In this document: one piece after another, positions 41,387-58,043 of the stretch
How the letters are laid out: the number at the start of each line of letters is the position of its first letter
Numbering within the stretch: position 1 is the stretch's first letter
From: Melioribacteraceae bacterium
GTDB taxonomy: Bacteria; Bacteroidota; Ignavibacteria; Ignavibacteriales; Melioribacteraceae
DNA: 64,000 bases
Assembly: GCA_021647785.1 (NCBI GenBank)
Contig: JAKIUC010000001.1
Coordinates: 1 to 64,000, forward strand
Direction: 5' to 3'
Made by a program: the position numbers and the translations under genes
The notes under the pieces: model-generated
What the model saw: the letters and a program-made list of their open reading frames with translations, nothing else
Database searches by the model: none
What the model was told of the DNA's origin: nothing

Positions 41387-41412
41387 TTTAACTCCATATT
41401 GCTAAAAGTGGT

Positions 41413-41593: not shown

Positions 41594-41594
41594 G

Positions 41595-43436
41595 TCACTC
41601 TTTCTTCATTCCAAAGGTTGCGTCTAATGGAATAAATTTGGTAATAATAAATGCTGGAATTGTTGAAAACACAACCCAAACGAAAAAGTGCTGATAGCCA
41701 ATTAACTCTTGCAGCCAGCCGCTTACCATTCCTGGTATCATCATTCCAAGTGCCATGAAACCGGTTGTTATTGCAAAGTGAGCCGTTTTGTGTTTGCCAT
41801 CTGAGATGTAAATCATATAGAGCATATATGCGGTAAAACCAAATCCATATCCAAACTGCTCAACTGCTACTGCGAGATTTATTAGGAAGAATGATTCTGG
41901 CATAACATACGCTAAATAGATGTAAACTGTATTTGGTAAGTTTATTGCAATCAGCATCCACCAAAGCCAGCTTTTTAATCCATGTTTCGCAGCAACAAAA
42001 CCGCCAAGTATTCCACCAAGAGTAAGAGCAATAATTCCAACAGTTCCATATACAAGACCAACCTCACCAGTAGTAAGTCCAAGTCCGCCAACTTCTTTTG
42101 CATCAAGTAAAAATGGTGCGGCTAACTTAACTAACTGTGCTTCGCCAAGCCTGTAAAGGAGAAGGAACGCAATTATAACTCCAATATGTTTTCGTTTAAA
42201 AAATATTATAAATGTATCAATAAATTCTTTGAATACGGACTTTTCACCTTTTGCTATTGATGGTTTATCGTTTGGTGAGTAGGGAATAATAAATTTATGA
42301 TAGATAAAAAAGAGTAAGAATAATCCTGTTAAAATTGAAAATGTAATTACCCAAGAGAATTTTATATTTCCGGAGCGTGCTTCAAAAGTGGCTGAGGATA
42401 GTGTGTGCAGTTTTGGGTCAAGCTGAATAACTGCAAAGGCAGGCTTATTCCAATTTAATTTATTGAATGTAAAGCGTGTACCTTCAATTAGTGAAATGCT
42501 TTTATCGCCCCCGCTTGCACCAAAGTTTACAACAATTTCATCCTCGTCTGGTTTGTTAGAAAGATGAAAATAAATTAGACCAACATCCCCAACACCTTCT
42601 GTTTTATTTATAACTGGTTTTTCAACACCAAAAGTATTTTTAATAAACTTTTCTAAAGCAGATAACTCTTTTGGCGAGGTTACTGTAGAAGAAGACTCAC
42701 CACCTTCAACACTGTAAAATCCATTTTTAGTATTCCATGTTTTTGCAAGGGTTAAAATTGAATCAATTTTGGGTTGAGTTGTTGTACCTGTACTAATCTC
42801 TATGTTGGATGAACTAACAAGAATTCTTAGTTCCCCATCAAGTGCATCAAGTTTAAGCGAGTCGGGATTAAAGATTTGCACTTCGGCACTTGGGTTGGCA
42901 TTCACTTTAATATCAAGTGCAGGAAGTCCAGTAGTAGTCTCAAAATAACCAGCAAGAATAATTAAAAGTCCTTGTCCGGTAATCATAGCAAGGCGATAGA
43001 ATGTTGATCTTATTCCAACAAAATATGCTTGCTTATGTTCCGATAGACCAATCATGTAAAAGCCATCTGCGGCAATATCGTGAGTGGCGGAGCTAAAGGC
43101 AAGCAGCCAGAAGAACAAAAGTGTGTATTGAAAAAAATTGGGAACAGGAATAGTTAAAGCAACACCCGCAAGACCCGCACCAATAAAGAGCTGCATTGTA
43201 ATAATCCAGAACCGTTTGGTTTTAAAGATATCAACAATTGGCGACCAGAGGGGTTTAATTACCCAGGGGAGGTAGAGCCAGCTAGTATAAAGTGCAATAT
43301 CACCATTTGAAATACCAAGCCGTTTATACATTATAACGGAAACAGTCATTACAATTATGTAAGGAATTCCTTCAGCATAATAGAGGGATGGTACCCATGC
43401 CCATGGATTAACTTTACTTTTTTTTTGTTCCGTCAT
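41595..43436 (-). CDS. ampG: AmpG-like MFS permease with ~190-residue insert
   Basis: Protein of 613 residues. The N-terminal half has AmpG-family features: WVPSLYYAEGIPYIIVMTVSVIMYKRLGIS, SWLYLPWVIKPLWSPIVD and FSSATHDIAADGFYMIGL. AmpG imports anhydro-muropeptides for recycling. Between about residues 165 and 357, where AmpG has a short loop, lies a non-membrane segment rich in Ser/Thr and charged residues; it would face the periplasm or cytosol depending on loop number. The remaining helices follow. Context with a NagK-like kinase and a racemase-like protein supports recycling. Confidence 0.78.
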   Translation of the reverse strand: MTEQKKSKVNPWAWVPSLYYAEGIPYIIVMTVSVIMYKRLGISNGDIALYTSWLYLPWVIKPLWSPIVDIFKTKRFWIITMQLFIGAGLAGVALTIPVPNFFQYTLLFFWLLAFSSATHDIAADGFYMIGLSEHKQAYFVGIRSTFYRLAMITGQGLLIILAGYFETTTGLPALDIKVNANPSAEVQIFNPDSLKLDALDGELRILVSSSNIEISTGTTTQPKIDSILTLAKTWNTKNGFYSVEGGESSSTVTSPKELSALEKFIKNTFGVEKPVINKTEGVGDVGLIYFHLSNKPDEDEIVVNFGASGGDKSISLIEGTRFTFNKLNWNKPAFAVIQLDPKLHTLSSATFEARSGNIKFSWVITFSILTGLFLLFFIYHKFIIPYSPNDKPSIAKGEKSVFKEFIDTFIIFFKRKHIGVIIAFLLLYRLGEAQLVKLAAPFLLDAKEVGGLGLTTGEVGLVYGTVGIIALTLGGILGGFVAAKHGLKSWLWWMLIAINLPNTVYIYLAYVMPESFFLINLAVAVEQFGYGFGFTAYMLYMIYISDGKHKTAHFAITTGFMALGMMIPGMVSGWLQELIGYQHFFVWVVFSTIPAFIITKFIPLDATFGMKKE

Positions 43437-43449
43437 AAAATTGCCTGGC

Positions 43450-44646
43450 TTATTTATTGATTCTCTTTGTATCTATAATATTAAACGCTTCTTTAATCTC
43501 CTCAAAAGCTACTTTAATCTCATCCTCTTCCAATTCTTTTTTAGCAATATTTGCTGCAATGTTAAAGTACTTTGCTTTTATTTTTCCCTTTCTCTCAAAA
43601 AATCCATTCCCATAGTTTCGTACAACTTCAATTGCCCAGTTTGTAATATACTCTTCGTAATCAGTAGGTTCAACAGCTTTAGCAAATAGAAGTTCAATCC
43701 TTCTTTTGTTAATTCCTATCGCTTTCAATAATGGAATAGTATAGAGTAAAAACAATCTATCTTCGTGGTTAACAGAATCGTATATACTATAGATATCAGA
43801 ATCATCAGATTCTATAAAATTATTTATATCAAATTCATCATCATCAAATTCATCGTCATCATAGAATTCTTCATCAAAATCAATTTCAATCGAATTAAAG
43901 AGTACAATTTTTTCTTCGGGTTGTAACAAATTTAATTCGTTACCACTAGGCACTACTTCATCTTCCCAAACATCAGTTAAAAGCATAATTATCTGTTTTT
44001 TTTCTATTGTATCATCAAAATCTTTTTTGTTTTTTTCAGAAAGGAACCTATCTATGTGGATATCAAAAAAAGTTAAAATATCGTTTAATGATGTTGATAT
44101 TGATTTTATCTCATCATAATTTGGAGTGAATACAACAATGTTAACTAATGTGTTGTAATTTAAAGGAAACGCAGTTATAGATGATTTCCAATTTTTTATA
44201 GCTTCATCCATATTTCCATTTTTCATATAGAAAAGTGCTAATTCATTTAAACATTCTGACTTAAATATGTATTCATCTTCTGCAAAATTTTCTAAAGCAT
44301 TCTTATATGTCTGTTCAGCTTTTTCATTTTCATTATTTTTGATATATATGAATGCCAAATGCGAATGTAAAACAAATTTATTTGGGAATAATTTTATGCC
44401 TTTTAAAATTGCTGTTTTAGCTTCTTCAAATTTTCTATTACTTAAATAAACTGTAGAGAGCAAACTATATAAAATGTAATTTTGTGGAGAGATTTTAATC
44501 TCATTTTCTAATATCTTAATAGATTCATTAAGTCCTTTATCCATAAGGTCAAGTGCGATATCAGCAGAATCTTTAAAAAAATTAGGTTCATCTCTATCCG
44601 ATGAATCTTCATGATTGTTAGAGTTTAATTGAAATATTTTTGCCAT
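43450..44646 (-). CDS. TPR-repeat protein with acidic middle
   Basis: Protein of 398 residues. Tetratricopeptide repeats are visible at ~30-170 (ILENEIKISPQNYILYSLLSTVYLSNRKFEEAKTAILKGI and following). A run of Asp/Glu (DEEFYDDDEFDDDEFD, ~268-283) precedes a helical tail. No signal peptide. Such proteins act as scaffolds; the partner is unknown. It sits 14 bases upstream of the AmpG-like gene on the same strand. Confidence 0.68.
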   Translation of the reverse strand: MAKIFQLNSNNHEDSSDRDEPNFFKDSADIALDLMDKGLNESIKILENEIKISPQNYILYSLLSTVYLSNRKFEEAKTAILKGIKLFPNKFVLHSHLAFIYIKNNENEKAEQTYKNALENFAEDEYIFKSECLNELALFYMKNGNMDEAIKNWKSSITAFPLNYNTLVNIVVFTPNYDEIKSISTSLNDILTFFDIHIDRFLSEKNKKDFDDTIEKKQIIMLLTDVWEDEVVPSGNELNLLQPEEKIVLFNSIEIDFDEEFYDDDEFDDDEFDINNFIESDDSDIYSIYDSVNHEDRLFLLYTIPLLKAIGINKRRIELLFAKAVEPTDYEEYITNWAIEVVRNYGNGFFERKGKIKAKYFNIAANIAKKELEEDEIKVAFEEIKEAFNIIDTKRINK

Positions 44647-44702
44647 TTTCTTTGTCCACTTATTAAAATTAGAAACTACAAATATAGAAAGGATTAATTA
44701 AT

Positions 44703-45626
44703 CTACCTATTAGAGAAATATTTTTTTGCCATTAAAGCTGCTCCCATCTGCGGGTTTAACTTAGCGGCTACAATTTGAACAGCAGAAATATTTTCAACTC
44801 TTTTGCGGAACAAGTTTGCGTAGTAATTATTAGTTGAAATTGTTCCGCCAATTAAACTAATTGATAAAACATCTTCATTTATTTTTTCTTTCATTGCTGA
44901 GATGTGTTCAATAAGTTCATCTATTTCAGAATCCAAAATATTTCTACAAATTAAGTCATTCTGTTCTGCTGCTTCAATTACTAATGGTGCAACTTTAGGG
45001 ATATCAAAATTGTTTTTATAAACTTCATTAATTAATTGAACAGAATTATTAATGTTAAAATTATCTTTTAATAATTTAGTAAGTATTGTTCCGTTATTTC
45101 TACCATCAAAAGATTTTGCAACAGCATTTAAACCAGCTTGCCCAATATGAAACCCGCTTCCTTCATCTCCAAGTATTCTGCCAAAACCTCCAACTCTATG
45201 AATATTGTCATTCAAATCTTTTCCAAACATGATTGAACCAGTACCTGCAATTAAAATACTTCCAGGCTTTCCAGCAAATGCTCCTTCAAGTGCAATGCGT
45301 GCATCACTTTCAACTCTGAAATTATTTGTTTTGATATTACGATTCTGCATTTCTTTAAGTACAGAATTCTCAAGACGCTCTGCATCCTCTCTACGTCCAG
45401 CACCGGCAGTGCCAATTAGAATTGATTGAATATCGCTGAGAGAAATATTTGCTTCATTAGTAAGAGTTGTGAGCAATTCTATAATAGAGTGTGCAACATC
45501 ATTAATATCAAAAACTAAAAAATTGGATGGACCGCCAACTCCTTCTTGAATAATATTCAAGTTTTCATCAATTAGAACAGCCTTCGTTTTAGTTCCGCCT
45601 CCATCAATACCAACAAAAAAGTTCAT
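44703..45626 (-). CDS. BadF-type N-acetylglucosamine/muramic-acid kinase
   Basis: Protein of 307 residues of the BadF/BadG/BcrA/BcrD ATPase family in its sugar-kinase branch. FVGIDGGGTKTKAVLI is the phosphate-1 loop, ILIGTAGAGRREDAERL the phosphate-2 region, ILIAGTGSIMFG the sugar-binding turn and SLIGGTISTNNYY the adenosine region. It would phosphorylate GlcNAc or MurNAc from peptidoglycan turnover, which fits the AmpG-like permease ~1.3 kb away. Confidence 0.8.
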   Translation of the reverse strand: MNFFVGIDGGGTKTKAVLIDENLNIIQEGVGGPSNFLVFDINDVAHSIIELLTTLTNEANISLSDIQSILIGTAGAGRREDAERLENSVLKEMQNRNIKTNNFRVESDARIALEGAFAGKPGSILIAGTGSIMFGKDLNDNIHRVGGFGRILGDEGSGFHIGQAGLNAVAKSFDGRNNGTILTKLLKDNFNINNSVQLINEVYKNNFDIPKVAPLVIEAAEQNDLICRNILDSEIDELIEHISAMKEKINEDVLSISLIGGTISTNNYYANLFRKRVENISAVQIVAAKLNPQMGAALMAKKYFSNR

Positions 45627-45790: not shown

Positions 45791-46471
45791 ATGAGTTTGA
45801 AATTATTTTTAACTCCAACAATTATATTATTTTTGTTTCTCTTTTGTGTTCCACTTACCTTTGTTGCACAAGTAACTCCGCAATACTTAAACAACCCAAA
45901 TTATGAGTTAGAGATTGGGAAATATAAAATTTACAAAACTAAACAAGTTGATATTGTAATGCTTGGCAACTCGCTAACTCACGGAGCAAACTGGAATGAA
46001 TTATTAGGACGAACTTCAATTTCTGAACAAGGCATTCCAAGTGATATAAGTGCAGGCGTTATAAATAGAATGGAATATATTTATAAAGTGAAACCAACAT
46101 TATGCTTTATCATGATTGGTGTAAATGATATTTTTAGTTGGATTCCTGTTGATACGGTATTTGCGAATTATAAAATAATTGTTGAAAATCTTAAAAGAAA
46201 AAATATTATTCCAGTAATTCAGTCAGTACTTTATGCGGGTAGGATGCAAGAATTGGCGGAGGGTAGAAATAGGGAAATTACAAAGCTAAATAAATTACTT
46301 GTAGGTTACTCGAAAGAAAATAACATTGAGTATATTAATCTTAATAAAAAAATGTCACGCTCTTTTTTTCTTAAAAGCCCTTTAACGTATGACGGAATTC
46401 ACTTAACTGGTCAGGGTTTTAAAATATGGGGAAGAGAAGTTGATAAAATACTACGCAAGTATAGTCTATAA
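45791..46471 (+). CDS. Exported SGNH/GDSL hydrolase
   Basis: Protein of 226 residues with a signal segment (TPTIILFLFLFCVPLTFVAQ). The catalytic Ser is S61 in VMLGNSLTHGANWNELL; MIGVNDIFSW supplies the GxND block, and YDGIHLTGQGFKIWG the C-terminal D-x-x-H. It is a lipase/acyl-esterase-type fold acting outside the cytosol. It starts the six-gene plus-strand run and probably acts on the same acylated polymer as the next genes. Confidence 0.82.
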   Translation: MSLKLFLTPTIILFLFLFCVPLTFVAQVTPQYLNNPNYELEIGKYKIYKTKQVDIVMLGNSLTHGANWNELLGRTSISEQGIPSDISAGVINRMEYIYKVKPTLCFIMIGVNDIFSWIPVDTVFANYKIIVENLKRKNIIPVIQSVLYAGRMQELAEGRNREITKLNKLLVGYSKENNIEYINLNKKMSRSFFLKSPLTYDGIHLTGQGFKIWGREVDKILRKYSL

Positions 46472-46491
46472 TTAATTAGGATCGATAAAAA

Positions 46492-47970
46492 ATGAATGAT
46501 AAAAACTCAAATAATTTACTAATAATTTTTGGTATTTCTCTAATTCTCTTAATTGCTAATTCTTATATGCCAGAAGGTGTTGAAATATTTGGTTTAGAAA
46601 TTAAGCAAGTTGATTTTCTTGGTGATATTAGAACAGATGATTTTTATGATGATGATAGTTATGAAGATGAGGAATATGAAGAAGATGAATATTTTGAGGG
46701 AGAAGATGATGAGTATTTTGAGGATAATGAGAGTGAAAATGATACCTCGTTCTTAGAAGGAAAGCCGAGATACAATTTGGCTGCAATTATTAATTTTAAT
46801 ATTTTCACAGAGTTTGTGGTTAGTGAGATAGATAAACTTTCAAATAATTATATACTCCCTTCTCAAAAAAAGAGAGGTGGTAATTTAAGTGGTAACTTAA
46901 AACAGTTAAACAAGTTTTTCTCTGCTCTAAAAAAAACGAAAAACAAACAAGTAAGAATAGCTCATTATGGAGATTCTACTCTTGAGGGTGATTTAATTTC
47001 AGCCGATCTTAGAGAACTGTTTCAAAAAAAGTTTGGCGGAAATGGTGTAGGGCTACTTCCAATTACTTCGCATGATGCAAAATTTAGAAAAACTACGGAC
47101 CTTAGTTTTTCTGACGATTGGATAACTGAAACAGTTTTTTCAAGAAATAAAGATAGGCTACCTGTAGGAATTAATGGGCAGGTTTTTGTAAACTCGGATG
47201 GTAGCTGGGTTAAAATGAAAACAAACAACAGGTATAAAACTGTACGAAAATTTGATGTTGCAAAGCTGTTCTATTCTAAAGCCAAAAGTAATGCAAAAAT
47301 AAAATATATTTTAAACGGAAAAAAAGGGGTTACTAAATCGCTATCTGCAGGAAAGGGTTTAAAGGTTCTTGAAATTAAAAATAAAGGCTCTAAATCAATT
47401 AAAATTGAATTCCCGAGAAGTGAATCGGCATACTATTATGGAGTAAGTTTAGAGAGTAAAAGTGGTGTGTTTGTTGATAACTATGCTTTAAGAGGTAACT
47501 CGGGGGTTGATCTTAAAAAAATTAGTAATGAATATTTAAAAGATTTTCAAAAGGAGATGGATTATAAATTAATAATTCTCGAATTCGGATTAAACATTTT
47601 GAGTGGACGAAAAACAAATTTTACTAAGTATGAAAGAGATATGGTGAAAATTATAAATAAAATGAAAAAAGCCATGCCTGACGCAAGTTTTCTTTTAGTG
47701 GGCGTACATGATAAATGTATAAAAAAGGGATCAAAATTTATTACTGACCCAACCGTATTAAAACTGATAAAAGCTCAAAAGAGTATTGCTGATAAAGCTG
47801 ATATTGCATTTTGGAATTTATTTGAAGCTATGGGTGGTGAAAACTCAATGGTGGAGTGGGTAAACGCAAATCCTCCAAGAGCATTTAAAGATTATATACA
47901 CTTCAACGATATTGGAGCTAAGAAGGAAGCCGAAATGTTATTTGCTGAATTAATGAAAAAATATAAATAA
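46492..47970 (+). CDS. Membrane-anchored SGNH-like protein with acidic linker (DltD/AlgJ-like role)
   Basis: Protein of 492 residues. One N-terminal membrane helix is followed by a highly acidic stretch (DDFYDDDSYEDEEYEEDE and on, ~45-85). The catalytic domain has RIAHYGDSTLEGDLI with S162 and, near the end, DYIHFNDIGAKKEAEML supplying D-x-x-H. The region between, with YYYGVSLESKSGVFVDNY, is beta-rich. SGNH proteins of this kind transfer or remove acyl groups outside the membrane, as DltD and AlgJ/AlgX do with an MBOAT partner. The MBOAT is three genes downstream. Confidence 0.72.
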   Translation: MNDKNSNNLLIIFGISLILLIANSYMPEGVEIFGLEIKQVDFLGDIRTDDFYDDDSYEDEEYEEDEYFEGEDDEYFEDNESENDTSFLEGKPRYNLAAIINFNIFTEFVVSEIDKLSNNYILPSQKKRGGNLSGNLKQLNKFFSALKKTKNKQVRIAHYGDSTLEGDLISADLRELFQKKFGGNGVGLLPITSHDAKFRKTTDLSFSDDWITETVFSRNKDRLPVGINGQVFVNSDGSWVKMKTNNRYKTVRKFDVAKLFYSKAKSNAKIKYILNGKKGVTKSLSAGKGLKVLEIKNKGSKSIKIEFPRSESAYYYGVSLESKSGVFVDNYALRGNSGVDLKKISNEYLKDFQKEMDYKLIILEFGLNILSGRKTNFTKYERDMVKIINKMKKAMPDASFLLVGVHDKCIKKGSKFITDPTVLKLIKAQKSIADKADIAFWNLFEAMGGENSMVEWVNANPPRAFKDYIHFNDIGAKKEAEMLFAELMKKYK

Positions 47971-47980
47971 GAGATTAATT

Positions 47981-49714
47981 ATGATTGACTTTTCATCATT
48001 GCAGGGAGAAACCCTCTGGGAACGATGGCAATATTTTGCCCAAACTACCCCAGATAAAGAGGCTATCATTCATTGGCGTGCTGTTGAAGAACCAGTTAGA
48101 TGGACATATTCATCATTGCTTGAAACTGCAAATAAATTTTCAGCATATCTTAAAAATATTGGAGTAAAGAAGGGTGATGTTTGTGCATTAATTATCAGAC
48201 ACGATCCATATTTTTATCCGTTATACCTTGGTATTACTGGTATTGGAGCATTGCCTTCTGTTTTAGCATATCCTAATCCAAGGTTGCATCCAGATAAGTT
48301 CAGACAAGGTTTAGCCGGCATGGCACTACGTTCAGGACTTGATTGGATATTAACAGAAACAGCACTTGAAGAAATTATTCTTCCATTTGTAGAGAACAAA
48401 GATACTACTGTAAACGAACTATACTTTCCATTGGAATGGGATTTAGAGAGAGATATAAATTCTGAAACTATTCAGGAATTAAGCGATATTAGAGCAGAGA
48501 TAAAACCAGATGAACCAATGCTGTTGCAGCATTCCTCTGGTACCACTGGGCTTCAGAAGCCTGTTGTTCTTTCGCATGTGGCAATTTTAAAGCATGTAGA
48601 GAATTATGGAAAATCAATTAATCTTTCTGCTGATGATAAAATTGTAAGCTGGCTTCCACTCTATCACGATATGGGATTAATTGCAGCATACCACTTAGCA
48701 CTTGCTTCTGGAATAACAATGATTCAGATTGATCCGTTTGAGTGGGTACTTGCACCAATAATACTATTTATGGCAGTATCGGAAGAGAAAGCCACTCTTA
48801 CTTGGCTTCCAAATTTTGCATACAATTTATTAGCCGATAAACTTTCGGATGAGGATATGGAAGACCTTTCTCTCGAAAGTTTGAGAATGGTTTGTAATTG
48901 TAGTGAACCAGTCCGCTCTGAAAGTCATAAAAAATTTAAAGAGAGATTTGAACAATTTGGATTCAATAAAAATGCGTTAGCAGCAATGTATGCAATGGCT
49001 GAAACTACATTAACTATTTCGCAAACTACCACAGGTAAACAAGCAGAAGAAATCTCTGTAGATAGGGAAATGTTAGCAAGTGGAACTATAGATCTAACTG
49101 ATGATGAAGCTATAGCAAGAGTTTGTGTCTCCTCGGGAAAATTAATTGATGAATGTACTTTAAAAATTGTTGACGAATTTAGAAATGAGCTTTCGAGTGA
49201 TGGTGTTGGCGAAATTGCTGTTAAATCTGTTTCAATGTTTTCAGGTTATAGAAATTATCCGGAGAAGACTGCTGAAGTACTTGATGATGAAGGCTGGTAC
49301 TACACTGGTGATATTGGTTTTATGCATAAAGATGAACTCTATGTTATTGGACGAAAAAAAGATATTATAATAGTTGCGGGTAATAATATTTATCCGGAAG
49401 ATGTTGAAGATGTTGTAAGCAAAGTTGATGGAGTTATACCTGGAAGAGTTATTGCATTTGGAGAGGATGATATTGAACTTGGAACCGAACAAGTTAGTGT
49501 AGTAGCTGAAACCAGACTAATAACAGATGATGATTTTGATAAATTAAGAGTAGCAATTCTACGTGCTGGTATGGAAGTAAGTATTAATATACATAATGTT
49601 TATTTAGTTCCACCTCGTTGGCTAATTAAAAGTTCCTCTGGCAAAGCAAGCAGGAAAGCAAACAGACAAAGAATAATTAGTAAAAGTGATGATAAAGTTT
49701 GGAGTAAAAAATGA
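47981..49714 (+). CDS. Fatty-acyl-AMP ligase-like adenylating enzyme
   Basis: Protein of 577 residues of the adenylate-forming superfamily. LLQHSSGTTGLQKPV is the P-loop, SWLPLYHDMGLIAAYHL the FAAL-type A5-like segment, EGWYYTGDIG the ATP-ribose site and SSGKASRKANRQRI the C-terminal catalytic Lys region. FAAL enzymes activate an acyl acid as AMP ester and load an acyl carrier protein rather than CoA. The ACP gene overlaps its stop by 4 bases, so they form a pair. Confidence 0.85.
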   Translation: MIDFSSLQGETLWERWQYFAQTTPDKEAIIHWRAVEEPVRWTYSSLLETANKFSAYLKNIGVKKGDVCALIIRHDPYFYPLYLGITGIGALPSVLAYPNPRLHPDKFRQGLAGMALRSGLDWILTETALEEIILPFVENKDTTVNELYFPLEWDLERDINSETIQELSDIRAEIKPDEPMLLQHSSGTTGLQKPVVLSHVAILKHVENYGKSINLSADDKIVSWLPLYHDMGLIAAYHLALASGITMIQIDPFEWVLAPIILFMAVSEEKATLTWLPNFAYNLLADKLSDEDMEDLSLESLRMVCNCSEPVRSESHKKFKERFEQFGFNKNALAAMYAMAETTLTISQTTTGKQAEEISVDREMLASGTIDLTDDEAIARVCVSSGKLIDECTLKIVDEFRNELSSDGVGEIAVKSVSMFSGYRNYPEKTAEVLDDEGWYYTGDIGFMHKDELYVIGRKKDIIIVAGNNIYPEDVEDVVSKVDGVIPGRVIAFGEDDIELGTEQVSVVAETRLITDDDFDKLRVAILRAGMEVSINIHNVYLVPPRWLIKSSSGKASRKANRQRIISKSDDKVWSKK

Positions 49715-49950
49715 TAAGTGATAGATTAAAAAAAATAATTTGTGATGAATTATATCTTGATTCTTCCACAATTGAAATTAATGATGAAACTGAGGCTACT
49801 GAAGTTCCAGGTTGGGATTCATTAAACCATGCTAATATTATTGTTGCAATCGAGAAAGATTATGGAGTTCGTTTTAAAGGACTTGAAGTTCTAAAGTGCA
49901 ATAATGTTGGAGCTTTACAAAACTTGATTGATTCAAAAGTATCAGATTAA
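49711..49950 (+). CDS. Acyl carrier protein
   Basis: Protein of 79 residues with four helices and the phosphopantetheine site GWDSL (S37). LDSSTIEINDETEATEVPGWDSLNHANIIVAIEKDYGVRF is typical. It should receive an acyl group from the upstream ligase and hand it to the MBOAT transferase. It resembles DltC in position. It is translationally coupled to the ligase by a 4-base overlap. Confidence 0.88.
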   Translation: MISDRLKKIICDELYLDSSTIEINDETEATEVPGWDSLNHANIIVAIEKDYGVRFKGLEVLKCNNVGALQNLIDSKVSD

Positions 49951-49965
49951 AAATTATAGGTAAGT

Positions 49966-51462
49966 ATGTTCGGAATTGATTTTACTAAAATCCCCGACCT
50001 TTTCTTGTACGATCCAAATTATCCGCTTCTATTTGGGTCTTCGTTATTTCTGTTTCTCTTTTTTGCACTATTAGTTTTTTATAGAATTTTTGCAAAGTCG
50101 AATAATGCAAGAATACTGGTCTTAATTATTTTCTCTCTCTACTTTTATTATATGGCTGGTGGTGTATTCCTCTTACTCCTCATTGCAAATGCAATCCTCA
50201 ATTTTTATTTTGGAAAGGGGATGGGTGCTACTAAAGTAGAGGGGAAAAGACGCAATTATCTACTGTTGGCTCTGCTGTTCAACCTTGGGTTATTAGTTTA
50301 TTTTAAATATTCAAATTTCTTTATCCAGTTAGTGAATGATATTAATTTAGGTCAGTTTGAATTAATAGATATTATTCTTCCTATCGGTATTTCATTCTAT
50401 ACTTTTAAATCGTTGAGTTACATTCTTGATATTTATTTAGAAGCAATGGAACCAACAAAGAGCTTTAGAGATTATTTCCTCTTTGTTACTTTCTTCCCGA
50501 ATATACTTGCTGGTCCAATTGATAGAGCAGCTAAATTTTTACCTCAGATTAACAAATCGTATTCACTTACTCGTAAAGAAATTGCATTGGGTTTAATGTT
50601 AATTATGATGGGACTAATTAAGAAAATTATGATTGCCGATTATATTAGTCTCAATTTTGTTGATAGAGTTTTTGATTCGCCAGTTAGATTTACTGGAGTT
50701 GAAAATTTGTTGGCTGTTTATGGTTATGCATTGCAGTTGTATTGTGATTTTTCAGGATACTCGGATATTGCTATTGGAATTGCATTGCTTCTTGGCTTTA
50801 AACTGATGGAGAATTTTAATTATCCATTTAAGGCTAAAAGTATTTCAGAATTTTGGAGAAGGTGGCACATATCACTTTCAAGTTGGTTGTTGGATTATGT
50901 GTTTCGTCCGCTACAAATAACCTTACGCAATTGGAGGAAGGCTGGAAATATTACTGCTTTAATTATAACCTTTGTTCTTGTAGGGTTTTGGCACGGTGCA
51001 AGTTGGGCGTTTTTGGTTTGGGGTTTATTGCACGGTATATATATGGCTATTGGTATGCTGGTACAAGGACCAAAGAGAAAATTCTATAATAAATATAATT
51101 TAACTAATTCAAAAATATTAGGCGGAATGCAGATATTTATTACTTTCAATTTAGTAGCTTTTTCATTTATTTTCTTTAGAGCAAATAGTTTTGAATCTGC
51201 TTTGGAAGTTATAAATCAAATTCTCTTTTTCTTTAAACCCACTGTGTTTATTCAGTTTGTTGAAGGATTTACTCCAACTTTCATACTTCTTATCTTAGGA
51301 TTTCTTTTCCACTTTTTACCAAGTTCGTTGGGGGATAAGGTTACTGATAAGTTATCAAAATTAAATATATTTGTTCAAGCAATAATTTTCACAGTTGTTA
51401 TTTGGGTAGTTACTCAAGTACAATCGGCTGATTTACAACCATTTATATATTTTCAATTTTAA
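49966..51462 (+). CDS. MBOAT O-acyltransferase (DltB/AlgI family)
   Basis: Protein of 498 residues with 10 or more membrane helices. FFPNILAGPIDRAAKFLPQI, CDFSGYSDIAIGIALLLGFKL, SEFWRRWHISLSSWLLDYVFRPL and FVLVGFWHGASWAFLVWGLLHG are the AlgI/DltB landmarks; H343 in FWHGASW is the proposed catalytic His. It would pass an acyl group across the inner membrane to an extracytoplasmic acceptor. It follows its ACP by 15 bases. Confidence 0.9.
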   Translation: MFGIDFTKIPDLFLYDPNYPLLFGSSLFLFLFFALLVFYRIFAKSNNARILVLIIFSLYFYYMAGGVFLLLLIANAILNFYFGKGMGATKVEGKRRNYLLLALLFNLGLLVYFKYSNFFIQLVNDINLGQFELIDIILPIGISFYTFKSLSYILDIYLEAMEPTKSFRDYFLFVTFFPNILAGPIDRAAKFLPQINKSYSLTRKEIALGLMLIMMGLIKKIMIADYISLNFVDRVFDSPVRFTGVENLLAVYGYALQLYCDFSGYSDIAIGIALLLGFKLMENFNYPFKAKSISEFWRRWHISLSSWLLDYVFRPLQITLRNWRKAGNITALIITFVLVGFWHGASWAFLVWGLLHGIYMAIGMLVQGPKRKFYNKYNLTNSKILGGMQIFITFNLVAFSFIFFRANSFESALEVINQILFFFKPTVFIQFVEGFTPTFILLILGFLFHFLPSSLGDKVTDKLSKLNIFVQAIIFTVVIWVVTQVQSADLQPFIYFQF

Positions 51463-51465
51463 TAT

Positions 51466-54417
51466 ATGTTTATCAGAATTAAAATATCATCCATTTTTTT
51501 ATTACTTGTTGCAATTAGTTTATCAAACCTTTTTGCTCAAGAGGTAAATAGAAGCGAGCAGTTAAAAGCATCTGCAATTAAACAGATTGAAGCAAAAAAA
51601 TATATTGAGGCAATTGATTTACTTAACAAATATATTTCTTCTTCTCCTCGCGACACCGAAGGTTATACATTAAGAGGAACCTCGTTTGAGACAATAGGAC
51701 AATATCAAAATGCAGTTTTAGATTTAAGACGAGCTTTAAGGTTAGACCAAAATAATACAACTGCCCGCATAGCCCTTGCAAGAACGGAAGCTATTTGGCA
51801 CAAGCAGTTAAGAAAAAAAATAAAAGGTCACGAAAGAGAGATTGCAATTGACCCTTCAAATCCTTTCAATTATTTAGAGATTGGAAAATCGTACCGATGG
51901 CTTGAGGAGTGGCAAACAGCAGAAGATTGGTATGACCAGTATTTAGCACGCGATGATGATGCATCCCCAGATGAAATTATTAGATATACTGAAATTCTCG
52001 CTAAGAATAATCACATCACAAAAGGGGAAAAAATATTAAAAGTATTTGTAGATAGATATCCGGAAGATTGGAGGCTATGGAGCCGTTACGGTTACTTCTC
52101 TCTCTGGCTTGCAAAATATAAACAAGCAAAAATTGCGTTCGAAAATGCACTTGGGTTCAAACCATTTTTTAAGGAAGCACAAGATGGATTGGATATAGTA
52201 ACTAAGAAAGGTTATATAACACAATACGACCCACAATCATTTGATAAAGAATTTCCGATAGACAGATACTACCGTTTGTTGCGGAAAAATCCGGATGATG
52301 CCGAGATGAGGTTTAAATTAGTTAATGATTTAATTAAGGCAAACAGAATTGAAGAAGCCTATCAGCAGTTGGAAATTTTAGGAATTGATTATTCTGAGGA
52401 ACCAAATTATATTGAGAAATGGGACTATGTTACTGAATATAGGGATAGTGTTTATAATATAAGAATTGAGGAATTGGAAGCGAGAGTTGAAGCGGATCCT
52501 ACTGATAAAGAATCGGTTTTACAATTAGTTGAGTATTATAGTTATCTCGAAGAGTATGAAGAAATTACATTTTTGTTAGAAAACTATTTAGAACTTGTTC
52601 CCGAAGAAAAAGACCCGCGTGTTAAGTTTGAATACGCTCAAGCCCTTGCCTGGAATAGATATTTTGGAGATGCCGGACTTGTACTTGATGAATTAATTGA
52701 GGAATATCCGCAAAATTTGGATTACAAATTATTTAGAGCACAAACTGCAATTTGGACAGAAACGGATATTGAATTAGCAACTAAATATGTTGATGAAGTT
52801 CTTGAAAAACGTCCGAATAATATTGATGCCTTAGTTTCAAAAGCAACGCTACTAATAATGGATGAAGATTTTGAAGAAGCACAAGCAACAATAGATAAAG
52901 CGAAATTAATCGATGCTGGAAATAATGAAGTATTCACAATTCAATCCAGATTAGAGTTTCAAATAATTCGTGCTCGTGAAAGAGAGATATACGCCATCCT
53001 TGATGAGGGGCGTAGTGTACTTGGTGATGAAGGGTGTGAAGAAGCGTTACCCTATTATGAAGAGTATCTTGAAAAAGCAGAACCAAATAATATTGTAAAA
53101 CGAGAATATGCTGATGTACTTTTTTGTGCAAAATATTATGATGAAGCTCTAACCATTTATGATAATCTTTTGGAAGAAGGATATGATTATAAAACTTCAT
53201 TAGAGCGTGGAAAACTTTATTATGAAACTGGAGATTCAGTGCGTGCTATGGAGGCTTTCAAAGCTTTAGTTGAAGAAGATTCAACAGAGTTTCAACCACG
53301 TTTATATCTTGGCGATTCTTACTCCAAGATGGGCGAAAATGATTCGGCAATGACTGTTTATGAAGAACTTCTTACTTGGGATTTAGATTCAATGCAAGTC
53401 TATCTTGTTGAGCAAAGAATTTCATGGATACCACCAACTGGTATAAGTGCAATATTAAGTGCCTTTCCATCAAGTATCGGAATTGCACCACAAGTACAAA
53501 CTTATTTTGATAATCTTAGTTTTGCCATGAATAAAATAGGAGTCAGAATTGAACTCGGTGTTTTTCAGCATCTTACTCTTGGCGTTTCATTTTATCGTAC
53601 TAATACTACGGCAAATTGGGAAACTTTAGATTCTGCATCTGTATATTATATCGATTCTGTTGCCAGGGCTAATACTTTTGATTCTACAGGCTTCACTGGA
53701 AAAAGATTGTACACTTCATTTAAAGGACATATAATAATACCTTTTTCTCAAGAGTTAGTTCTCTCACTTGCTTTAGGAATAATTAACACAGATGGTTTTG
53801 AAAGCCAAGATGAAACAGAGATTTCATTTGGTTACGATAATCAAAATGATTTTGGAGCCTATATTTACTATTATGCATCTGATGCAAATCTAATTCTCTA
53901 TTCACCATATCTTATTGATTATAGTTTTAAAGATAGAACAAGAATGACGGCATCAATTTTTAAGGTAAAGGGATACTATAAACATTCATCAGGATTGTTG
54001 TTCGATTCTTTCTTCGATTATCTCTCTATCTCTGATGGAAATGCGGGAAATAATTTTCAATTACGAATGGGATATCAATTTACAGAACCGTTCACAGCTG
54101 GTTACGAATATTTCTATCAAAATTATAAGTATAAAGATATGTTAGTTTATTACTCACCTCAAAATTTTGATACACATTCTCTTTGGGCAGATTTTTTATT
54201 AGAAGATGAAGAAATTACAAAGGTTGGCTTAGGTGGGAAACTTGGGTATGCACCTTCAACATCCCAACTAATTTTAGAAGGACACTTGAATGCAAAGTAT
54301 AAACCACTCTCTAATTTAATGCTGCAAGGTAATTTAACAATGGGGCAAAGCTCACAGTACAATTCTGCTTATAGATATTTTGGAGCAAACATATCTGCTT
54401 ATTGGACTTTTTGGTAA
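51466..54417 (+). CDS. TPR protein with C-terminal outer-membrane beta-barrel (polysaccharide-export-like)
   Basis: Protein of 983 residues with a signal peptide (SIFLLLVAISLSNLFAQ). Tetratricopeptide repeats span ~25-680 (for example YIEAIDLLNKYISSSPRDTEGYTLRGTSFETIGQYQNAVLDLRRALRL). A linker at ~660-690 is followed by an aromatic-rich strand region to the end (~690-983), finishing YFGANISAYWTFW, like a BcsC/PelB/PgaA-type barrel. In those systems the TPR part threads a polysaccharide and the barrel exports it. A polymerase gene is not adjacent. It starts 3 bases after the MBOAT stop. Confidence 0.72.
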   Translation: MFIRIKISSIFLLLVAISLSNLFAQEVNRSEQLKASAIKQIEAKKYIEAIDLLNKYISSSPRDTEGYTLRGTSFETIGQYQNAVLDLRRALRLDQNNTTARIALARTEAIWHKQLRKKIKGHEREIAIDPSNPFNYLEIGKSYRWLEEWQTAEDWYDQYLARDDDASPDEIIRYTEILAKNNHITKGEKILKVFVDRYPEDWRLWSRYGYFSLWLAKYKQAKIAFENALGFKPFFKEAQDGLDIVTKKGYITQYDPQSFDKEFPIDRYYRLLRKNPDDAEMRFKLVNDLIKANRIEEAYQQLEILGIDYSEEPNYIEKWDYVTEYRDSVYNIRIEELEARVEADPTDKESVLQLVEYYSYLEEYEEITFLLENYLELVPEEKDPRVKFEYAQALAWNRYFGDAGLVLDELIEEYPQNLDYKLFRAQTAIWTETDIELATKYVDEVLEKRPNNIDALVSKATLLIMDEDFEEAQATIDKAKLIDAGNNEVFTIQSRLEFQIIRAREREIYAILDEGRSVLGDEGCEEALPYYEEYLEKAEPNNIVKREYADVLFCAKYYDEALTIYDNLLEEGYDYKTSLERGKLYYETGDSVRAMEAFKALVEEDSTEFQPRLYLGDSYSKMGENDSAMTVYEELLTWDLDSMQVYLVEQRISWIPPTGISAILSAFPSSIGIAPQVQTYFDNLSFAMNKIGVRIELGVFQHLTLGVSFYRTNTTANWETLDSASVYYIDSVARANTFDSTGFTGKRLYTSFKGHIIIPFSQELVLSLALGIINTDGFESQDETEISFGYDNQNDFGAYIYYYASDANLILYSPYLIDYSFKDRTRMTASIFKVKGYYKHSSGLLFDSFFDYLSISDGNAGNNFQLRMGYQFTEPFTAGYEYFYQNYKYKDMLVYYSPQNFDTHSLWADFLLEDEEITKVGLGGKLGYAPSTSQLILEGHLNAKYKPLSNLMLQGNLTMGQSSQYNSAYRYFGANISAYWTFW

Positions 54418-54612: not shown

Positions 54613-54684
<72 letters not shown>

Positions 54685-54689
54685 CAAAG

Positions 54690-54713
54690 AACCTCATGCA
54701 ATTGAGGTTTTTT
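54690..54713 (+). terminator. Terminator of tRNA-Asn
   Basis: AACCTCA-TGCAAT-TGAGGTT followed by TTTT begins 5 bases after the tRNA. A 7-bp stem, 6-base loop and T-run make a standard intrinsic terminator. Confidence 0.85.
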
Positions 54714-55196
54714 AGTTTTAAATCTAAAGAAGTTCTAAACCGTTGAGGAAGTGTTTCATAAAAATCTTTACGACTTAGGCGCTTAGCCAAAGACTTTTAT
54801 GAACAAATTGTTCGTGTTGAAAAAACTGATCTATATTAAAGAAATAGTTATTTGTCCGCTGCCGCGGATTGCCGTTATTTGCGATGCTGTCATTGATTGT
54901 TATAATAAATGACTATTATTGACGTGAAGCAAATGACAATAATGATTCATTATTTACAACTTTATGATTTCCAATGAATGTGGCTTTTTTCCAGCCATGT
55001 GCTGTAAAAACTTAGTCTCTTTGCGGTTCCTTCTCCAAGTTCAAATAGTTTTCTAATTTATGAGAAAATAATCTTAATAAAAGAAAGATGCTACTACATA
55101 AATTTACCTTTTCCTAAACTTAATAGTAAAAAATTGCAATAAATAATTTAGGCACGTATTTTGTCTAACCGCTTTATAAATAAAATAGGAATTGTG
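54714..55196. other. Gene-free spacer
   Basis: 483 bases without a supported gene between the tRNA terminator and the epimerase. TGTCATT and AAATGAC motifs recur in opposite orientation near 54888-54938, similar in style to the tandem repeat at 10657, but no full palindrome is present. The promoter for the decarboxylase operon must lie at the right end. No integrase or other island marker follows the tRNA. Confidence 0.5.
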
Positions 55197-55604
55197 ATGC
55201 ACATAAATAAAATTGAACATATTGGAATTGCAGTAAAGAGTATTGAAGAAGCACTTAAGTACTATGAAGGAGTTTTAGGGTTAGAATGTTATGCAGTGGA
55301 GGAAGTTAAGGAACAAAAAGTTAAGACTGCATTTTTAAAAATTGGAGAGACAAAAATTGAACTTCTCGAAGCTACTAATGACGATAGCCCAATTGCAAAG
55401 TTTATTGAAAAGCGTGGTGAAGGGGTTCAGCACATTGCCTTTGCTGTTAACGGAATTGAAAATGTTTTAGCTGAAGTGAAGGAAAAAGGAATTCGCTTAA
55501 TAGATGAGAAACCTCGAAAGGGTGCGGAAGGATTGGATATTGCATTCCTACATCCAAAATCAACTGGTGGTGTATTAACAGAGTTTTGTGAAAAAAACAA
55601 TTAG
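55197..55604 (+). CDS. mce: Methylmalonyl-CoA epimerase
   Basis: I chose the ATG giving [21 protein letters not shown], preceded by AGGA; a TTG 36 bases upstream is in frame but not family-like. The 135-residue VOC-fold protein has the metal ligands H (KIEHIGIAV), H ([10 protein letters not shown]) and E (LTEFCE). It interconverts R- and S-methylmalonyl-CoA and leads the decarboxylase operon. Confidence 0.9.
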
Positions 55605-55661
55605 ATAAAGATAATAGATTAAAAGATGTAAGGATATTTATACATCTTAAAAGGAGTTAAA

Positions 55662-57221
55662 ATGGGAATGGAAAACAAGATAGAAGAACTACTAAAAAAG
55701 CGTGAAGAAGCTCGCATGGGCGGCGGAGAAAAACGAATTAATGCCCAGCATGGCAAAGGGAAGATGACTGCTCGTGAGCGGATTGAATTACTCCTTGACG
55801 AAGGTAGTTTTGAAGAGTTTGATATGTTTGTGCATCATAGAACAGTAGGGTTTGGTCTTGAAAATCAGCAGTATCTTTCGGACGGTGTTGTTACTGGGTA
55901 TGGTACTATTGATGGAAGATTAGTTTATGTGTTTTCTCAAGACTTTACAGTTTTCGGAGGATCGCTATCTGAAATGTACGCACAAAAAATAGTAAAGGTA
56001 ATGGAGAAAGCAATGAAAGTTGGTGCACCTATCATTGGAATAAACGATAGCGGTGGTGCAAGAATTCAGGAAGGTGTTAAAAGTCTTGGTGGTTATGCCG
56101 ATATTTTCCAACAGAATATTATGGCATCTGGTGTTGTGCCGCAAATCTCAGCAATATTTGGTCCTTGTGCAGGTGGTGCTGTTTACTCTCCTGCATTAAC
56201 CGACTTTACAATTATGTCGAAAGGAACAAGCTATATGTTTGTTACTGGTCCTAAAGTTGTAAAGACTGTAACTGGCGAAGTTGTAACAACTGAAGAACTT
56301 GGTGGTGCTCAAGTTCATGCTACAAAATCTGGCGTTACTCATTTTGTTTCCGAAGATGAAGAAGAAGGGATGATGTTAATCAGAAAAATTTTGAGTTACC
56401 TACCGCAGAATAATATGGAAGACCCTCCGCACAGAGTTTGTAGTGACCCTATTGATAGACTAGATGATTTATTAAATAATATAATTCCAGAGAGTGCCAA
56501 TAAACCGTACGATGTTAAAGATGTAATATTATCTATTGTTGATGATGGTGAATTCCTTGAAGTACATAGACAGTATGCTCAAAACATAGTTGTAGGGTTT
56601 GCAACATTTAATGGTGGCTCAGTTGGTATTGTTGCTAATCAGCCAAGTTACCTTGCTGGAGTTTTAGATATAAATGCTTCTAGAAAAGCAGCACGCTTTG
56701 TAAGGTTCTGTGATGCTTTTAATATTCCAATAGTTACACTTGTTGATGTACCCGGATTTTTACCAGGCACAACACAGGAGTATGGTGGTATTATTATCCA
56801 CGGAGCAAAATTACTTTTTGCTTATGGCGAAGCAACTGTTCCTAAAATTACAATAATTCTCCGAAAGGCTTATGGTGGTGCTTATGATGTAATGAGTTCC
56901 AAACATCTTAGGGGTGATATCAATTACTCTTGGCCAGGAGCAGAGATTGCAGTAATGGGAGCTAAAGGAGCAGTTGAAGTTCTCTATTCGAAAGAGGCAA
57001 AAGCTATTACTGATGCAGATGAAAAAGCAAAATTTATTAAAGAGAAAGAGGAAGAGTATAAAGAGAAATTTGCTAATCCCTATGTTGCTGCTAAGTATGG
57101 TTACATCGATGATGTAATTGAACCTCGCAATACAAGGTTCAGAATAATTAGAGCATTGCAGATGCTTTCAACAAAGAAAGATAGCAACCCTCCAAAGAAA
57201 CATTCAAATCTTCCATTATAA
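55662..57221 (+). CDS. mmdA: Methylmalonyl-CoA decarboxylase, carboxyltransferase alpha subunit
   Basis: Protein of 519 residues starting after AAAGGAG. MIG-type carboxyltransferase motifs are [70 protein letters not shown] and [48 protein letters not shown]. It moves the carboxyl group of methylmalonyl-CoA to biotin on MmdC. A propionyl-CoA carboxylase beta reading is possible, but the neighbouring OadG/OadB partners favour the decarboxylase. Confidence 0.9.
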
Positions 57222-57233
57222 TAAGGAGCAGTT

Positions 57234-57593
57234 ATGTTTGAGCAATTTAGCTTATCAAATATTTGGGAGAATGATGGAGTATTGATTTCTGTTGTTGGGT
57301 ATATAGTTGTTTTTGTTTCTTTACTTTCACTTGCAATAATAATTACATACTTCCAAAAAGTTCTTCAGTTAAAACAGAGAAAGAAGTTAAAATCTGCTGG
57401 TCATCATGCTGCTGATGCGGATGACCTCTCAATTTCTGGTGAAGTAAGTGCTGCCATTTCAACAGCTCTATACCTGCATTACGAGGAAAAACATGATTTA
57501 GAAAATACAGTATTAACAATTAAAAGGGTTCAAAGAACATATTCGCCGTGGAGTTCTAAACTATACGGGTTAAGAGAAAATCCAAAGAGATAA
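57234..57593 (+). CDS. OadG-like gamma/delta subunit
   Basis: Protein of 119 residues. One membrane helix (DGVLISVVGYIVVFVSLLSLAIIITYF) and a soluble tail match OadG/MmdD, which ties the carboxyltransferase to the membrane part. Its C-terminal region (AADADDLSISGEVSAAISTALYLHYEEKHD) is typical. It lies between mmdA and mmdC with 12- and 9-base gaps. Confidence 0.85.
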   Translation: MFEQFSLSNIWENDGVLISVVGYIVVFVSLLSLAIIITYFQKVLQLKQRKKLKSAGHHAADADDLSISGEVSAAISTALYLHYEEKHDLENTVLTIKRVQRTYSPWSSKLYGLRENPKR

Positions 57594-57602
57594 GGTTTTA
57601 AA

Positions 57603-58040
57603 ATGAAAAAATTTAAATTTAATATTAGAGGAAACAGCTACAGCGTTGAGATTTTAAATCTTGAAGACAATGTAGCAGAGGTTGAAGTAAACGGTTCAAC
57701 ATATCAAGTAGAAATTGAAAAAACTATCAAAGAAACAAAAACACCAAAATTAATGCGACCGAAAATTATTCATTCTGGTGGGCATGATGCAGCAAAGACA
57801 AGCAAGCCAAGTGCTGCAAAGGGTGTTGGGTTTGTTAAAGCTCCGCTGCCAGGCACAATATTAGAACTTAAAATTAATATTGGTGATGAGGTAAAAGTAG
57901 GTGATACACTTCTGATAATGGAAGCAATGAAAATGGAAAACAACATCAAATCTGATAAGGCTGGAAAAGTGACTGCCATTAAAATTAACAATGGCGATTC
58001 AGTTCTTGAAGGAGATGTTCTAATTGAGATAGGGGAATAG
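57603..58040 (+). CDS. mmdC: Biotin carboxyl carrier subunit (MmdC-like)
   Basis: Protein of 145 residues. The biotinyl motif is EAMKMEN with K110 the biotinylated Lys. The N-terminal beta domain (~1-45) and a flexible Lys/Ala/Gly/Pro linker (~55-85) precede the biotinyl barrel. It shuttles carboxyl groups from MmdA to the membrane subunit. Confidence 0.92.
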   Translation: MKKFKFNIRGNSYSVEILNLEDNVAEVEVNGSTYQVEIEKTIKETKTPKLMRPKIIHSGGHDAAKTSKPSAAKGVGFVKAPLPGTILELKINIGDEVKVGDTLLIMEAMKMENNIKSDKAGKVTAIKINNGDSVLEGDVLIEIGE

Positions 58041-58043
58041 CAA

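Follow-up and report, generated by a model that had tools for sequence, protein, structure and literature searches.

A candidate peptidoglycan O-acylation operon with a Dlt-like pairing of ligase and carrier protein in a Melioribacteraceae bacterium

Gene content and organization of the locus

We analyzed 64,000 nt from a Melioribacteraceae bacterium (assembly GCA_021647785.1, contig JAKIUC010000001.1, positions 1 to 64,000; hereafter the window), in which six consecutive genes encode two SGNH enzymes (SGNH1 and SGNH2), a fatty acyl-AMP ligase (FAAL), an acyl carrier protein (ACP), an MBOAT acyltransferase and a TPR protein with an outer-membrane barrel. Our preferred reading, to which we give roughly even chances, is that these genes form a PatA/Ape1-like locus of the peptidoglycan O-acetylation (OAP) type, in which the acetyl-CoA donor side has been replaced by a Dlt-like pair of FAAL and ACP. 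The evidence comes mainly from a short MBOAT segment that separates FAAL-linked from FAAL-less relatives, from the grouping of this MBOAT with those of Bacteroides OAP-type loci, and from the Ape1-like fold of SGNH2. The genes and the parts of their products discussed below are as follows.

45791–46471, + strand: SGNH1, small GDSL/SGNH hydrolase or transferase, 226 aa (Pfam Lipase_GDSL_2, 60.3 bits; signal-peptide-like N-terminus by eye)
46492–47970, + strand: SGNH2, membrane-anchored Ape1-like SGNH protein with an inserted beta-sandwich, 492 aa (fold, profile and SGNH motifs)
46507–46641, + strand: N-terminal module of SGNH2, a transmembrane helix plus the motif (K/R)xxD..xDI(K/R)xD (hidden Markov model; stand-alone copies in nine other loci)
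47981–49714, + strand: FAAL-type acyl-AMP ligase, 577 aa (PDB matches and NCBIfam)
49711–49950, + strand: ACP with a GWDSL phosphopantetheine site, 79 aa (Pfam PP-binding, 28 bits; cut-off 20.8)
49966–51462, + strand: MBOAT, DltB-like, 498 aa (Pfam MBOAT, 96.4 bits)
50896–50949, + strand: putative carrier-docking segment, MBOAT residues 311–328 (aligned with DltB helix HC)
51442–51459, + strand: C-terminal acyl-shuttle hexapeptide FIYFQF (FXYXXF) of the MBOAT (motif; Tyr495)
51466–54417, + strand: TPR superhelix plus 16-strand outer-membrane barrel, 983 aa (Pfam TPR matches; structure model)

All six open reading frames lie on the + strand between 45791 and 54417, and Pfam and NCBIfam assignments (two GDSL/SGNH proteins, an AMP-binding ligase, an ACP, an MBOAT and a TPR protein) agree with these labels. 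Spacing along the block is 20, 10, –4, 15 and 3 bases, the negative value being an ATGA overlap between the end of the FAAL gene and the start of the ACP gene. A preliminary description, made from the sequence alone, had reported six tightly packed genes with one overlap, as we find, and gaps of 3–16 bases, which one gap of 20 exceeds. A tRNA gene (54613–54684) and then a terminator-like hairpin (54686–54713) follow the TPR-barrel gene, so the block most likely ends at 54417. A promoter scan was uninformative (50 sites versus 43.9 in shuffles). The genome spans 4.25 Mb in 99 contigs, and its single MBOAT match is that of the operon. When the six-gene order was looked for in other genomes, as the preliminary description had proposed, it recurred across Ignavibacteriales. 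Because the same genes appear in the same order in many Ignavibacteria contigs, the gene set is not a chance assembly.

A DltB-like MBOAT segment tracks with the ligase and carrier genes

The MBOAT scores 200.4 bits with NCBIfam TIGR04091 (LTA_dltB), short of the cut-off of 375, and DltB accounts for both of its PDB matches at E 0.001. In a tree of 75 MBOAT rows, 57 form one clade (support 100/100). Fifty-two of these come with a FAAL gene, four with an ACP gene only, and one with a FAAL on another contig. The sister group consists of eight FAAL-less rows (99/97), most of which retain SGNH genes. Fourteen positions separate the two clades, and six of them fall at residues 313–336. There the FAAL-less proteins read LGGN(K/Q/R)KG, whereas the FAAL-linked proteins are DltB-like. 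In DltB, the contacts for the carrier DltC are described as Met302, Val305, Ile306, Met309 and Lys312 of helix HC, together with Arg317 (PMC11035591). Met302, Val305 and Ile306 align to residues 314, 317 and 318 of the window MBOAT, and Met309 stands opposite a gap.

This difference was scored in 91 distinct MBOATs with a length of 350 aa or more. LGG (counted by script as LGG followed by N, S, G or R) was seen in 0 of 72 MBOATs linked to FAAL or ACP genes versus 14 of 19 unlinked ones. The pattern was written after the alignment of the two groups had been viewed; the outgroup and plasmid sets are the sole data outside its discovery. Among the 12 plasmid loci, LGG was present in 10 of the 11 MBOATs other than DltB and absent from the DltB (L206), which stands alone without dltA or dltC. 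The eleventh non-DltB protein (L198) has no match to the pattern and no annotation; L198 and L197 are both unannotated in the stretch. A non-ribosomal-synthetase gene lies ∼3 kb downstream in plasmid locus L199.

Exceptions and switches were also found. Two exceptions to the LGG rule are explained: L066 has its FAAL on another contig, and L155 was retrieved through its FAAL. We considered whether a distant AMP ligase nearby accounts for the odd MBOATs, and set this aside, as L079 has such a ligase (23% identity) ∼1.5 kb from an LGG MBOAT. In L081 (7181–12563), two non-LGG MBOATs flank a 490-aa AMP ligase 24% identical to FAAL; this locus is possibly another carrier-fed type. At L077 a distant AMP ligase (22%) lies ∼5.6 kb off on the other strand. 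Twice, a FAAL-linked non-LGG MBOAT pairs in the tree with an unlinked LGG MBOAT (L107 with L059_6 at 100/99; L139 with L080_8 at 98/96). The change between the two states thus seems to have happened more than once, though some branches in these pairs are long. At three loci (L063 in G103, L086 in G092 and L087 in G105) an ACP gene sits beside a non-LGG MBOAT while FAAL is missing from both locus and genome (at 1e-100). Together, these comparisons support the proposed docking of acyl-ACP on the DltB-like segment of the MBOAT.

The same protein carries a candidate acyl shuttle. The FXYXXF motif was present in 39 of 44 MBOATs; of the other five, one ends at a contig edge and four keep the tyrosine without the first phenylalanine. 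Tyr495 is invariant in 29 aligned rows. In PatA and DltX, the tyrosine of this motif is described as carrying the acyl group (PMC12148441). That source, in its treatment of MBOAT/SGNH pathways, sets carrier-fed Dlt apart and says that the others lack a similar carrier protein (PMC12148441). Judged from sequence, this MBOAT group is an exception to the carrier-less rule, with the shuttle motif on the MBOAT itself. The preliminary description had proposed Dlt logic (ligase, carrier, MBOAT, SGNH) in a Gram-negative-type envelope, and the DltB-like segment and shuttle motif both support and sharpen that proposal.

There are also differences from DltXABCD, which D-alanylates teichoic acids. Both systems keep a ligase, a carrier protein, an MBOAT and an SGNH protein together and have a DltB-like docking segment. 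Unlike Dlt, the window locus has a ligase of probable FAAL type, an Ape1-like SGNH protein and a Gram-negative-type envelope, and its predicted shuttle tyrosine lies at the MBOAT C-terminus rather than on the DltX microprotein.

The ligase resembles FAALs

For the ligase, the best NCBIfam models were those for long-chain fatty-acid-CoA ligase (309.1 bits) and fatty acyl-AMP ligase (307.6 bits), both under their cut-offs. PDB matches favor AMP ligases, with the fatty acyl-adenylate ligase 3pbk and FadD32/FadD23 in the top rows; DltA is absent among the best 60 of 177 PDB matches. As to a FAAL-specific insertion, the region past the active-site motif was compared with 3kxw, which we take to be a FAAL, and shows no large gap in the alignment. 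The PDB matches support kinship of the ligase with FAALs. FAALs are described as loading holo-ACP rather than CoA (PMC8460268). The ligase type points to an acyl group of the fatty-acid type rather than acetate. In the one literature collection searched, we found no paper linking a FAAL to an MBOAT plus SGNH, or an acyl-AMP ligase to an MBOAT. At seven loci (L056, L059, L068, L097, L120, L121 and L125) the FAAL gene is present in tandem duplicate, and two acyl substrates may be used there.

The MBOAT and SGNH2 resemble components of peptidoglycan O-acetylation

The window MBOAT belongs to a 24-row clade (100/100) that includes MBOATs of Bacteroides finegoldii and Phocaeicola massiliensis. The B. 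finegoldii locus (L196) reads RND transporter, SGNH, SGNH, MBOAT, and the P. massiliensis locus (L197), by hidden Markov model (HMM), reads SGNH, SGNH, MBOAT. The Bacteroides OAP cluster is described as ape1b, ape1c and pat with a putative cation-efflux transporter upstream, and peptidoglycan O-acetylation is given as 69.4% in B. fragilis and 27.0% in B. thetaiotaomicron (PMC1199599). By this gene content, L196 and L197 would be OAP loci of the kind described there.

The window locus and the OAP cluster share an MBOAT of one 100/100 clade with a C-terminal FIYFQF, an Ape1-like SGNH protein with the membrane module, and a second SGNH protein. As a known system of similar order (esterase, esterase, MBOAT), OAP thus matches the core of the locus but has no FAAL, ACP or barrel, and its MBOAT has LGG. 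The order of the two SGNH genes also differs, and equating the small SGNH1 with Ape1c would be conjecture. Because ACP and FAAL lie in the operon and a DltB-like segment stands in place of LGG, the window locus is not an ordinary OAP member. PatA/PatB of Neisseria and Campylobacter likewise combine an MBOAT and an SGNH protein with a C-terminal acyl-tyrosine shuttle, but PatA uses acetyl-CoA (PMC12148441), unlike the FAAL and ACP of the window.

SGNH2 scores 29.4 bits with Pfam GDSL, slightly below the cut-off of 32.9, yet its fold is clear. The model (mean pLDDT 81.9) matches Ape1 (4k3u) with Z 39.0 over 342 residues, the insert included, and Campylobacter Ape1 with Z 35; the next rows reach 18.6. 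A profile search with its sequence found the 4k3u chain at E 3.6e-29, and the SGNH motifs are conserved in 31 rows. Ape1 is described as bearing a CBM35-like module (PMC6174289). PatB, in contrast, matches the SGNH core only (Z about 16). The model is thus Ape1-like over both domains, a fold that does not distinguish an esterase from a transferase. The nearest solved chains of SGNH1 are sialate O-acetylesterases.

In the SGNH2 tree, FAAL-linked and FAAL-less rows are intermixed. SGNH2 of the FAAL-less locus L082 groups with those of FAAL-linked L060 and L064 (100/100), whereas its MBOAT lies in the FAAL-less clade (100/97). Because these two trees disagree, the probable history is a swap of the donor cassette in which the enzyme on the acceptor side was retained.

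A membrane module shared by SGNH2 and stand-alone microproteins

An HMM of the N-terminal module was built solely from N-termini of full-length SGNH2 proteins (52 rows) and used to search 1.85 Mb of DNA from the loci, some of which were included twice. Besides SGNH2 genes it matched stand-alone frames, 57–90 codons long from one stop to the next, at nine separate loci (L061, L118, L119, L120, L121, L123, L127=L068, L130=L057 and L132). The stand-alone matches have E 1.1e-13 to 4.1e-18; the best other match has E 0.59. These membrane microproteins sit just upstream of FAAL. Considering MBOAT genes with at least 7 kb of upstream sequence, the module was found for 44 of 48 (46 loci) and was missing at L066, L069, L077 and L079; the genome of L069 has SGNH2 and SGNH1 on another contig (L189). 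Eight of the nine loci with a stand-alone module also encode SGNH1, and no catalytic SGNH was found near the ninth module (L130/L057).

For stand-alone modules, dN/dS was 0.12–0.29 across six pairs among four related loci, values that are not independent of one another. Three loci further apart gave saturated synonymous distances in two of their three pairs. The OAP-type SGNH of Phocaeicola also carries the module (E 7e-07). FXYXXF is absent from all nine stand-alone microproteins. The module may serve to dock the SGNH side onto the MBOAT.

Distribution among relatives

The sample comprised 146 genomes (the genome of the window and 145 relatives). An MBOAT match at E 1e-20 was found in 110, FAAL at 1e-100 in 67 and the TPR-barrel at 1e-60 in 126. 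With our own cut for MBOAT orthologues (E < 1e-120), 99 genomes and 106 loci remain; this cut drops contig-end fragments of orthologues (G041, G078, G102 and G131), so the 47 genomes counted below as MBOAT-less are an upper bound. FAAL lies within 3 kb of the MBOAT at 38 of 64 loci in the window's own family (f1), 5 of 5 in f2 and 15 of 37 in f3.

A FAAL-alignment scan of named genomes gave 551 matching stretches, of which 543 were relatives, and the 80 best were retained as 77 loci. They are mostly from Ignavibacteria (Melioribacter, Stygiobacter and others), the more distant ones coming from Elusimicrobia, Omnitrophota, Zixibacteria, Lindowbacteria, Acidobacteria, Verrucomicrobia and myxobacteria. 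In Stygiobacter electus 09-Me, a cultured relative, SGNH1, SGNH2, FAAL and ACP genes are together at a single locus where no MBOAT was seen; Melioribacter roseus is likewise in culture. A gene of ∼390–400 aa precedes the outgroup MBOATs. An SGNH identity for it was considered but found no support: there was no Pfam match at E 1e-4 (two proteins) and no PDB match below E 0.8 (one protein).

The TPR-barrel protein and the exopolysaccharide alternative

The barrel has no Pfam match and was identified from a structure model with 16 strands (mean pLDDT 81.6, pTM 0.39). After realignment, the best three fold matches were 4y25 (Z 22.1; presumably PgaA), PelB (20.1) and BcsC (19.3), with OmpG at about 16. 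Ranked by Foldseek E-value, eukaryotic TPR proteins come first and BcsC is at rank 16; the NCBIfam BcsC score is 23 of 858 bits. The PgaA/PelB/BcsC exporters share a TPR superhelix and a 16-strand barrel with this protein, and by modeled fold the BcsC/PelB-like barrel of the preliminary description stands. Unlike those exporters, the window operon has no synthase: we found no cognate GT2 synthase among its six genes, and no polymerase adjoins it, as the preliminary description had also said.

That description proposed looking for a GT2 synthase elsewhere, and one is found in the same genome beside a paralogue of the barrel. The paralogue lies on contig G000:C75 (64000–83900, L194) in an exopolysaccharide-type locus with GH9, a KaiC-like ATPase, an Ape1-like SGNH, two GPI-family proteins, a ROK kinase and a PgaC-like GT2 whose best NCBIfam model is PgaC_IcaA (200 bits, cut-off 422). 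At L178, such a locus is accompanied by a fatty-acid-hydroxylase-family protein.

The main rival of peptidoglycan as acceptor is therefore the exopolysaccharide of this C75 locus, or a close relative of it, which would receive its acyl groups in the periplasm and leave the cell through the TPR-barrel. We consider this unlikely, although several results speak for it: the fold ranking of the barrel, the company kept by its paralogue, and co-occurrence. GT2 was detected in 120 of the 146 genomes. In the subset with completeness of 90% or more and contamination of 5% or less, it occurs in 76 of 78 with an MBOAT orthologue versus 20 of 30 without, but whole clades lack both genes, so descent confounds the association. 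In eight f3 genomes (G089, G094, G096, G097, G103, G107, G119 and G122), MBOAT and GT2 share a strand and are no more than 18 kb apart; L084 and L085 are examples of such proximity. FAAL-linked MBOATs of other phyla (L138, L139 and L158) also sit with glycan genes. On the other hand, nearly all genomes of the order have the barrel and the GT2 locus, including genomes without an MBOAT orthologue, while G002 (94% complete) and G017 (100%) have the orthologue and no detected GT2. Moreover, the MBOAT clusters with the Bacteroides OAP-type proteins and not with the three AlgF- or cellulose-type MBOATs in the tree.

Is the barrel part of the acylation machine at all? It might be an exporter or envelope protein that shares the operon by chance in one family, a proposal we rate somewhat below an even chance. 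Beyond its presence in 126 of 146 genomes, the barrel family occurs in 29 of the 47 genomes without an MBOAT orthologue, and we rejected the idea that it is an obligate part of acylation. It lies within 3 kb of the MBOAT at at least 33 of 64 loci in f1, but at least 0 of 5 in f2 and at least 2 of 37 in f3; these are lower bounds, drawn from 114 of the 126 barrel genomes. Within f1, however, adjacency is seen both with FAAL (at least 19 of 38) and without it (at least 14 of 26), and G023, a split genome, still has the barrel alongside SGNH2 and SGNH1 (L189). Such persistence exceeds the expectation from drift. The barrel gene thus does co-occur with acylation genes, and the coupling that the preliminary description proposed reflects real synteny in one family, though the barrel family itself is far wider.

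Weighing the acceptor

Because SGNH2 is Ape1-like and the MBOAT groups with Bacteroides OAP-type proteins, peptidoglycan is the likelier acceptor, and the 'undescribed surface polymer' of the preliminary description is probably wrong. The muropeptide-salvage-like genes divergent from the operon were also counted for peptidoglycan. Peptidoglycan-recycling neighbors were rejected as sole proof of the acceptor, as NlpC/P60 and dipeptide epimerase genes also flank the exopolysaccharide-type locus.

Several results weigh against a peptidoglycan O-acylation locus with a carrier-fed donor side. Those NlpC/P60 and epimerase genes occur at L175 and L184, where there are no acylation genes and whose two genomes have no MBOAT orthologue, so they count for less as evidence of peptidoglycan. 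The barrel next to the MBOAT is of the export type. An Ape1-like SGNH lies beside the barrel paralogue in exopolysaccharide-type loci in five cases, one of which (L176) is in G013 (86% complete), a genome without an MBOAT orthologue; the Ape1 fold is therefore not proof of peptidoglycan. The SGNH2 tree has a poor backbone (nine of 25 inner branches starred, 11 open) and gives no specific tie between the window SGNH2 and Bacteroides Ape1b. In the MBOAT tree, the FAAL-less and FAAL-linked clades are sisters relative to OAP with support of just 91/81. OAP function in Bacteroides was itself deduced, in the account of PMC1199599, from gene content and chemistry rather than genetics. On the donor side, five unlinked MBOATs do not have LGG, three of them unexplained (L077 and two in L081), and the best NCBIfam match of the ligase is the CoA-ligase model rather than the AMP-ligase one.

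It seems improbable to us that the target is instead another envelope glycan (O-antigen or lipopolysaccharide), or that the ligase loads an amino or hydroxy acid as in true Dlt. Three outgroup MBOAT-FAAL loci (L138, L139 and L158) do adjoin GT4, GT2, epimerase, methyltransferase or carbamoyltransferase genes, and an amino-acid permease adjoins a fourth (L145). But no glycosyltransferase adjoins the window operon, and the top solved relatives of the ligase are of the fatty acyl-AMP-ligase type, with DltA outside the best 60 of 177 matches.

A working model for carrier-fed O-acylation

For the OAP-type locus with a Dlt-like donor side, we infer the acyl-ACP donor, the peptidoglycan acceptor, the acyl chain and the tasks of the SGNH and barrel proteins from homology and gene context. 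As in other members of its family, FAAL would activate a carboxylic acid as acyl-AMP and load it onto ACP. The acyl-ACP would dock on the cytoplasmic DltB-like segment of the MBOAT, as the LGG comparison suggests, and by homology to PatA and DltX the MBOAT would pass the acyl group to the tyrosine of its own FIYFQF on the periplasmic side. An SGNH enzyme, presumably held to the MBOAT by the N-terminal module of SGNH2, would then take the group from tyrosine to its serine and hand it to a glycan hydroxyl, most likely of peptidoglycan. Either SGNH protein could be the transferase, and the other may be an esterase that removes the group. The TPR-barrel would be an outer-membrane partner, either a client that acylation serves on the envelope side or an exporter encoded in the same operon.

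If this model is right, the locus encodes a peptidoglycan acylation machine that has naturally changed its donor, acyl-ACP replacing acetyl-CoA, and in which a membrane microprotein or a fused module does the docking; the nine stand-alone copies of the SGNH2 module point to such a docking part. One orthologous group would then contain both carrier-fed and carrier-less kinds, told apart by a short MBOAT segment. That segment would offer a cheap sequence rule for predicting carrier-fed acylation and a handle on donor choice, and such loci may be where to look for peptidoglycan substituted with a group longer than acetyl. More speculatively, FAAL and its dedicated carrier may decorate peptidoglycan with fatty-type acyl esters, whose lipid tails, perhaps along with the TPR-barrel, would contribute to anchoring the outer membrane on the wall; we regard this extension as doubtful.

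Genes flanking the operon

Divergent from the operon lies a muropeptide-salvage-like set (39899–45626, – strand) consisting of genes for a glutamate-racemase-like protein, an AmpG-like transporter, a TPR protein and a NagK-like kinase. Three of its members are as follows.

44703–45626, – strand: BadF-type sugar kinase, NagK-like, divergent (Pfam, 145.5 bits; NCBIfam NagK_SO3507, 139.7 bits, cut-off of 370 not reached)
41595–43436, – strand: AmpG-family muropeptide-transporter-like protein of the major facilitator superfamily (TIGR00901, 164.4 bits, cut-off of 350 not reached)
39899–41386, – strand: glutamate-racemase-like protein (TIGR00067, 99.6 bits, cut-off of 146.65 not reached)

On the other side, at 55161–59189, a methylmalonyl-CoA epimerase-like frame is followed by carboxylase, OadG/biotin-carrier and OadB-like frames, which by eye resemble a decarboxylase sodium-pump set. 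A large repetitive open frame of at least 1444 aa occupies 59667–64000 and runs off the window.

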